Assembly: GCA_903893925.1 (NCBI GenBank)
Contig: CAITOC010000022.1
Span: forward strand, 1-45,376
Reading direction: 5' to 3'
Length of the DNA stretch: 45,376 nucleotides
Source: Candidatus Moraniibacteriota bacterium
Lineage (GTDB): Bacteria; Patescibacteriota; Minisyncoccia; Moranbacterales; UBA1568
Of this stretch, positions 44,334-45,376 are shown piece after piece. Positions within the stretch are counted from its first letter, which is position 1. Every line of letters begins with the position of its first letter. The position numbers and the translations under genes were made by a program. Under the pieces are notes generated by a model that saw only the letters and a program-made list of their open reading frames with translations, did no database searches and was not told the DNA's origin.

Positions 44334-45376
44334 GATCCTGGCTCAGGATGAACGCTGGCGGCGTGGATAAGGCATGCAAGTCGAATGGTCGCATCACCCT
44401 CTGTGTGATGCTCCAACTGACGACTGACAACTGACGACTGACAACAGGGAGGCTTGTTATGAGTTATGAGTTGTAGGTTGTAGGTTGGCCGGTATCGTGC
44501 GAAGCGCGATGCGGCCATGGCAAACGGGTTAGGAACACGTAGGAATCTGCCTCGAAGTCGCGAATAACTCGGAGAAATCCGTGATAATACGCGATGTGCT
44601 CTACGGAGTAAAGATTTATCGCTTCGAGAGGAGCCTGCGTCCTATCAGCTAGTTGGTAAGGTAATGGCTTACCAAGGCTATGACGGGTAGGGGGTGTGAG
44701 AGCATGGCCCCCAACATTGGCACTGAGACACTGGCCAAACACCTACGGGTGGCTGCAGTCGAGAATATTCCACAATGGACGAAAGTCTGATGGAGCGACG
44801 CCGCGTGCAGGAAGACGGCCTTCGGGTTGTAAACTGCTTTTCTCAGGGAAGAATTTCGATGACTGTACCTGAGGAATAAGAGGTTACTAACTCTGTGCCA
44901 GCAGTAGCGGTAATACAGAGACCTCAAGCGTTATCCGGATTTATTGGGCGTAAAGCGCAGGTAGGCGGGCATGTTAGTCAGATGTCAAATATCCCGGCTC
45001 AACCGGGAAGAGGCATTTGAAACGGCATGCCTAGAGATAGTGAGAGATCAGTGGAATTCACGGTGTAGTAGTGAAATGCGTTGATATCGTGAGGAACACC
45101 AAAGGCGAAGGCAACTGATTGGCACTGTTCTGACGCTGAGCTGCGAAAGCGTGGGGAGCGAATGGGATTAGATACCCCAGTAGTCCACGCTGTAAACGAT
45201 GCATACTAGGTGCGGGGAGAATCGACCCTTTCCGTGCCGTAGCTAACGCGTTAAGTATGCCGCCTGGGAAGTACGAGCGCAAGCTTAAAACTCAAAGGAA
45301 TAGACGGGGATCCGCACAAGTGGTGGAGCATGTGGTTTAATTCGACGGTAAGCGAGGCACCTCACCAGGGTTTGAA
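44320..45376 (+). rRNA. 16S ribosomal RNA, 5' part (truncated by window end)
   Basis: GAGAGTTTGATCCTGGCTCAG, CCTACGGGTGGCTGCAG, GTGCCAGCAGTAGCGGTAATAC, ATTAGATACCCCAGTAGTCC, AAACTCAAAGGAATAGACGGGG. Confidence 0.97.
44413..44488 (+). repeat. Heptanucleotide-repeat hairpin inside 16S rRNA helix 6 / V1
   Basis: Left arm CCAACTGACGACTGACAACTGACGACTGACAAC, 10-nt loop, right arm GTTATGAGTTATGAGTTGTAGGTTGTAGGTTGG. 27 of 33 positions pair including G-U. Confidence 0.92.

Follow-up and report, generated by a model that had tools for sequence, protein, structure and literature searches.

The window, a stretch of 45,376 nt from a Candidatus Moraniibacteriota contig, ends within a 16S rRNA gene, and the 5′ part of that gene carries a long spur at the tip of helix 6 (Table 1). 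The source genome (G000) is a draft of 88 contigs and 1.18 Mb, and its 16S gene is CPR-like, with CPR loci as the nearest named or titled matches. This likeness, together with the genome size, makes a place in the CPR probable. In the Rfam alignment the spur lies within helix 6 (V1), where 110 nt face 6 model positions. The leader that precedes the gene in G000 contains an additional hairpin at 44283–44335, which bears a second copy of AAATTATTGAGAGTTT, the 16S 5′ end; G003, a genome of the same genus, is without it.

Table 1. Features of the 16S gene end and its helix-6 insert, in window coordinates
Feature	Position	Strand	Basis or remark
16S rRNA gene, 5′ part	44320–45376	+	Rfam RF00177, 915.7 bits, model 1–985 of 1533; truncated by the contig end
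Ancestral helix-6 stem, 5′ side, ATGG	44385–44388	+	aligns with ATGGGTTTAGGCCCAT of sister genomes G001 and G004
Insert, 126 nt replacing 8 nt of the helix-6 tip	44389–44514	+	BLAST and V1 gap
Clamp 5′ half, palindromic GCATCAC...GTGATGC	44390–44410	+	18/21 identical to the 23S insert; self-fold −9.5 kcal/mol
Left heptad array, C(CAACTGA)(CGACTGA)(CAACTGA)(CGACTGA)CAAC, four units AACTGAC/GACTGAC	44413–44445	+	dispersed family; Tandem Repeats Finder
Loop separating the arrays, AGGGAGGCTT, 10 nt	44446–44455	+	pairing analysis
Right heptad array, (GTTATGA)2(GTTGTAG)2GTTGG	44456–44488	+	inverted member of the same family (reverse-complement match)
Clamp 3′ half, palindromic ATCGTGC GAA GCGCGAT	44492–44513	+	20/22 identical to the 23S insert; self-fold −13.6 kcal/mol
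Ancestral helix-6 stem, 3′ side, CCAT	44515–44518	+	V1 comparison with sister genomes

Arrays and Predicted Fold of the Spur

A first-pass annotation of this DNA had described two 33-nt heptad arrays pairing at 27 of 33 positions around a 10-nt loop, enclosed by an outer 9-bp stem, and both the sequences and the coordinates are confirmed. In register, the paired positions comprise 23 Watson–Crick and 4 G–U pairs. Shifting the arrays by one heptad leaves 20–21 of 26 positions paired, and any other shift gives a lower value. The outer stem (44387–44395 with 44508–44516) pairs at 9 of 9 positions, one of them G–U. RNAfold, a check of the kind that the annotation had proposed, folds 44380–44525 into one long hairpin with a free energy of −67.1 kcal/mol (z = −5.9), and 0 of 200 shuffles are equally stable. 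Tandem Repeats Finder reports the left array with period 14 at 100%. This array is a perfect 14-nt duplication, and the right array is made of two perfect 7-nt duplications. The period-7 self-match of the spur is 18/21, with p = 0.007, the lowest value (floor) attainable with 150 dinucleotide shuffles. The helix-6 arrays and their fold exceed chance on every test run.

Relatives with and without the Insert

The V1 gap from AAGTCGA to GCAAACGGG measures about 135 nt here versus 17 nt in the sister genomes, where it forms a short hairpin (ATGGGTTTAGGCCCAT). Comparison with the closest 16S genes, which the annotation had called for, finds the spur absent. It is missing from G001, G002, G004, G005 and further family members with readable V1, all of which have the short hairpin at the helix-6 site, and two of these sisters, G001 and G004, are 98% identical to G000 across the remainder of the 16S stretch. 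In BLAST, relatives align to positions 1–69 of the 1057-nt query and then to 196–1057, with 8 nt in between, so the annotation's concern that relatives might carry unrelated sequence of the same length is not borne out. A family search for V1 gaps of 56–116 nt, a range that excludes the ~135-nt gap seen here, found none.

G003 shares the insert as far as its sequence extends: the first 51 nt after AAGTCGA are identical to those of G000, and the G003 contig then stops within the array. The region upstream of the gene is 73.6% identical between the two genomes and the 16S leader about 90%, which correspond to divergences of about 26% and 10%. G000 and G003 group together, apart from G001, G004, G005 and G002 (support 0.983). 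By its 73.6% upstream identity, G003 is a species distinct from G000.

These data bear on an assembly artefact, in which reads with heptads from other loci would have been merged into the 16S gene or, in a variant, the contig end in conserved 16S may be chimeric. Repeats mislead assemblers, the draft has 88 contigs, and the G000 contig stops in 16S, that of G003 in the array. However, the same first 51 nt occur in a separately assembled and clearly distinct species, and sequences on both sides of the arrays pair mutually and have a twin in 23S rRNA, as described below. An artefact, which the first-pass annotation had named as fatal to its proposal, is therefore very improbable.

A Dispersed Heptad Family

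To count the heptads, the genome was sampled as stretches covering about 1.155 Mb of the 1.18 Mb (~97.5% at counting), with the family defined as RACYNAY and with reversed and shuffled sequence as controls. G000 contains 108 arrays, versus 2 in reversed and 0 in shuffled sequence, and the commonest words are AACTGAC, AACTTAC, AACTAAC and AACTCAC. Tandem Repeats Finder gives 82 period-7 rows in the genome and none in shuffled sequence. By a crude gene caller, under which the genome is about 83% coding, 23 of the arrays lie inside predicted ORFs and 16 partly inside, and the remaining 69 are intergenic or located at contig edges. A search of G000 with its own 16S stretch places all listed non-self matches in the spur. 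Outside G000 (148 occurrences), AACTNACAACTNACAAC is found 48 times in G001, 40 in G003, 48 in G004, 18 in G005 and once in G002; the remaining family members examined have 0–5 occurrences, and some genomes of the order have as many as 25. The heptad family is thus enriched in the genus and rare across the rest of the family. The array count and the genus enrichment support the first-pass proposal that a dispersed repeat family has entered an rRNA helix, and they contradict the opposing possibility, to be settled by a genome-wide count, that the heptads are missing elsewhere in the genome.

G001, G004 and G005 contain the repeat family and lack the helix-6 insert. Because the heptads are abundant in these sisters, the family is independent of the insert. 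Adjacent opposite-facing arrays are always ordered AAC-then-GTT (8–14 pairs versus 0), which means that fold-back pairs of the polarity seen in the spur occur elsewhere in the genome. Among the fold-back pairs listed, the 16S pair has equal arms and the shortest gap (10 nt).

Heptads in other RNA genes of G000 were ruled out for the scanned contigs by Rfam and self-BLAST. In the scanned array-bearing contigs (40 own loci, all but L117), Rfam hits and listed arrays never coincide, and the 23S fragment, the 16S 3′ end, 5S, tmRNA and RNase P RNA had no heptad matches in self-BLAST. The RNase P contig has a single strict array, far from the RNase P gene. The RNase P RNA itself (L088, 2342–2876, minus strand) has a ~164-nt hairpin extension without heptads, the core of which has one relative, 77% identical, at L088 6831–6904.

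The window holds further repeats. A glycosyltransferase gene at 5912–7213 (+) includes two tandem 48-nt units (6527–6624) that recur at many places in the genome, and a prmC-like gene (PrmC_N) at 27185–28363 (−) contains an in-frame segment, ~27628–27760, with matches to dispersed repeats at other genomic sites. A heptad-like stretch with other words (AGGAATA, TAAAGTCA) lies at 10976–11088 and also has matches elsewhere in the genome, and 25705–25803 is a lysine-rich, coding-type tandem repeat with units of 12, 24 and 48 nt (AAGGCCGTCAAG).

Heptads within a structural RNA gene have a precedent in heterocyst-forming cyanobacteria, where Vioque reportedly described short tandemly repeated repetitive (STRR) heptanucleotide sequences within the RNase P RNA gene in 1997. 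In both cases a dispersed heptad family has tandem members within the gene for a structural RNA; the present heptads differ in lying in 16S helix 6, in another kind of bacterium, and as two inverted arrays within a clamp shared with 23S rRNA. The first-pass comparison with cyanobacterial STRR sequences holds as an analogy, in that the heptads are tandem, dispersed and mostly intergenic, but fails for the host, the 16S gene being CPR-like and not cyanobacterial. We accordingly class the heptads as STRR-like only, by resemblance. A near-identical word, TAACTGA, is known as tandem and dispersed direct repeats in marine Beggiatoaceae (PMC4679880); in the portion of that account available to us these repeats differ in being intergenic, near start codons, with none reported inside rRNA.

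An Outer Clamp Shared with 23S rRNA

The heptad arrays are flanked by two clamp halves, composed of non-heptad sequence, that pair mutually and close the hairpin. The first-pass annotation overlooked this clamp, its 23S twin and the recurrence of such spurs in other lineages. The 23S gene of the same genome carries both clamp halves as well, with order and orientation unchanged and another core between them. In the best local alignment the 16S and 23S spurs reach a score of 34, the highest among 200 shuffles being 24. In the Rfam alignment the 23S insert occupies the loop that follows model position 583, which we take to be helix 25. The insert folds with z = −6.8 and also has period-7 structure at the floor of p = 0.007. 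Helix 25 and helix 45 are known sites of 23S intervening sequences (IVSs) (PMC2801512).

The clamp is not a dispersed element. With up to 4 mismatches, the sole other match outside rRNA is the 3′ half in L105 (3 mismatches), which we take as chance, and at 5 mismatches the matches in the genome are no more frequent than in shuffled sequence. A dispersed palindrome of the REP/REPIN type was thus rejected, since the clamp is found in 16S and 23S without dispersal in the genome. Copying, gene conversion and separate insertion are candidate routes by which it reached both rRNA genes. In another Moraniibacteriota genome (G064), the 23S insert at the helix-25 place (L241, about 1903–2080) has AATTTTC repeats facing AGAAATT, an inverted-heptad design built on another word.

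The clamp also bears on whether the spur is no more than an expanded repeat. In such an account, a heptad array or chance palindrome grew through slippage and templated fold-back, and the likeness to 23S is convergence. The perfect 14-nt and 7-nt duplications within the arrays mean that local duplication did happen. Against this stand the non-heptad clamp common to the 23S insert and the fold-back heptad pairs elsewhere in the genome, from which an inverted pair could have arrived ready-made. We consider pure expansion unlikely, and we read the spur as IVS-like, more than an expanded repeat, because the clamp recurs in the 23S helix-25 insert.

The spur has further properties of an IVS, being an added stem in a variable rRNA helix with pairing ends (9 of 9 outer pairs in helix 6) and being absent from close relatives. 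An intron, with or without a homing endonuclease, was rejected: Rfam found no group I or group II intron family above the gathering score in the last 7.4 kb of the window, and 126 nt is too short for the usual endonuclease ORF. IVSs are known in the 16S rRNA of Helicobacter (PMC3335488). Like bacterial rRNA IVSs, the insert is an extra stem of 100–200 nt in a variable helix, with a 23S twin in helix 25 and no intron match; it differs in having a core of dispersed genomic heptads and in sharing one clamp between 16S and 23S. The spur is a variant of two known kinds, the rRNA IVS and STRR repeats within a structural RNA gene.

Excision or Retention

We favor the interpretation, which we hold to be reasonably probable, that the tip of 16S helix 6 has received a two-layer, IVS-like insertion, with the shared clamp outside and the heptad-array pair inside. 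Its outer layer would be the clamp with palindromic halves that closes the hairpin, common to the helix-25 insert in the 23S of the same genome, and its inner layer a convergent pair of heptad arrays drawn from the dispersed STRR-like family of the genus. Dispersed repeats would enter an exposed hairpin tip where they are tolerated, and presumably only inserts that fold back survive, leaving the 16S core intact. With less certainty, the encoded RNase III might cut the stem as the rRNA matures, in the manner of classical IVSs. Bacterial rRNA IVSs of 100–200 nt are excised by RNase III (PMC8708148), and an RNase III gene is present in G000 and in the ten other genomes searched.

Alternatively, in line with the first-pass proposal of a tolerated surface spur, it could be a retained expansion segment, a surface rod on the 30S subunit in mature 16S rRNA, neutral or functional, for which we put the chance somewhat below even. 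E. coli 16S helix 6 accepts a fused MS2 aptamer, and the modified rRNA serves for ribosome purification (PMC7043885). The 51-nt identity with G003, set against 73.6% upstream and about 90% in the leader, suggests that the spur changes slowly, at a rate nearer to that of mature 16S than to that of spacer, and would fit a retained, constrained part of the rRNA at least as well as an excised one; this identity is based on a short stretch of 51 nt at a contig end. Retention is also countered by the encoded RNase III and by the clamp, which recurs in a 23S insert where classical IVSs occur. On the other hand, the mismatch at about every seventh pair of the heptad stem may weaken RNase III cutting. 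For the two-layer insertion itself, excision by RNase III and retention in the ribosome are about equally probable.

Spurs in Other Lineages

A V1 scan of one genome per species, for gaps of 91–151 nt before GGCAAACGGGT, yielded 42 stretches, 31 of which are true 16S 5′ ends. Eight members of this long-V1 set are classed as non-CPR by title; most others are CPR-titled, and some titles are uninformative. Seven other CPR spurs, chosen partly for their repetitive look, were each compared with the genome of origin and with six to eight further genomes (E ≤ 0.01), and six of the seven, a non-random choice, have at least one additional copy in their own genome. The Magasanikbacteria spur has 37 non-self matches in its own genome, and because several are about 70 nt long, its core is read as a copy of a dispersed palindromic element. 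The corresponding numbers are 10 for Peregrinibacteria, 9 for Uhrbacteria (three of about 80 nt), 4 for Portnoybacteria, 4 for G067 (one in its own 23S) and 1 for Moraniibacteriota, while the Falkowbacteria spur has 0 at this threshold. Some of the spur repeats are shared with other genomes of the set, most notably the Magasanikbacteria element.

The spurs of L161, L174 and L187 show period-7 structure at the floor of p = 0.007, and so do the 23S inserts from G064 (21/21) and G057 (17/21). For the eight spurs assigned to the non-CPR class, p is never below 0.05. Likeness between 16S and 23S inserts beyond all shuffles is found within G067 and within G057, in the latter in repeat sequence and at another 23S place. 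The clamp halves of the named long-V1 loci do not recur in the same loci, few of which include 23S; the stretches covered from the sister genomes contain no 23S. One long helix-6 insert, of about 300 nt in the 16S gene of L054 (G043, about 174–484), contains an 86-aa GIY-YIG ORF at 211–471 (Pfam PF01541, E 8.8e-18) between long terminal inverted repeats, TCGCCACACCATTCAGCTTT and AAAGCTGAATGGTGTGGCGA.

Implications

Insertions in CPR rRNA genes are common. According to Tsurumaki et al. (2024), 48% of CPR 16S genes contain insertions of at least 100 bp; as far as the available text of that study goes, most of those without intron or ORF are short and left uncharacterized, and some in 23S lie at IVS sites (PMC11270868). 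Those insertions, like the inserts described here, affect both 16S and 23S, and many of the short ones are free of ORFs and introns. The present case differs in that the available text does not derive short insertions from dispersed repeats, and in that several spurs here would fall below its limit of at least 100 bp relative to E. coli (PMC11270868). Our literature search, with most subscription papers outside its scope, found no account of dispersed heptads in 16S rRNA or of a clamp shared between 16S and 23S.

Given repeat-filled inserts in unrelated lineages, exposed rRNA tips appear to be sites where genomic repeats land repeatedly. A more tentative, rather doubtful extension is that two-layer spurs are a CPR-wide design, in which a clamp can move from one rRNA gene to the other (16S helix 6, 23S helix 25) while the core is refilled from whichever short repeats are spreading in the genome; the tips would then act as a recurrent repeat sink, close species would differ by long spurs made of repeats, and some spurs would be kept in the ribosome. 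Fold-back copies of a genome's own dispersed repeats are a possible origin for part of the short, uncharacterized CPR rRNA insertions. These observations have a bearing on V1-based 16S primers and alignments, and they make testable the source of rRNA IVSs and their differences among close relatives, as well as the notion that dispersed repeats may act as builders of ribosomal expansion segments.
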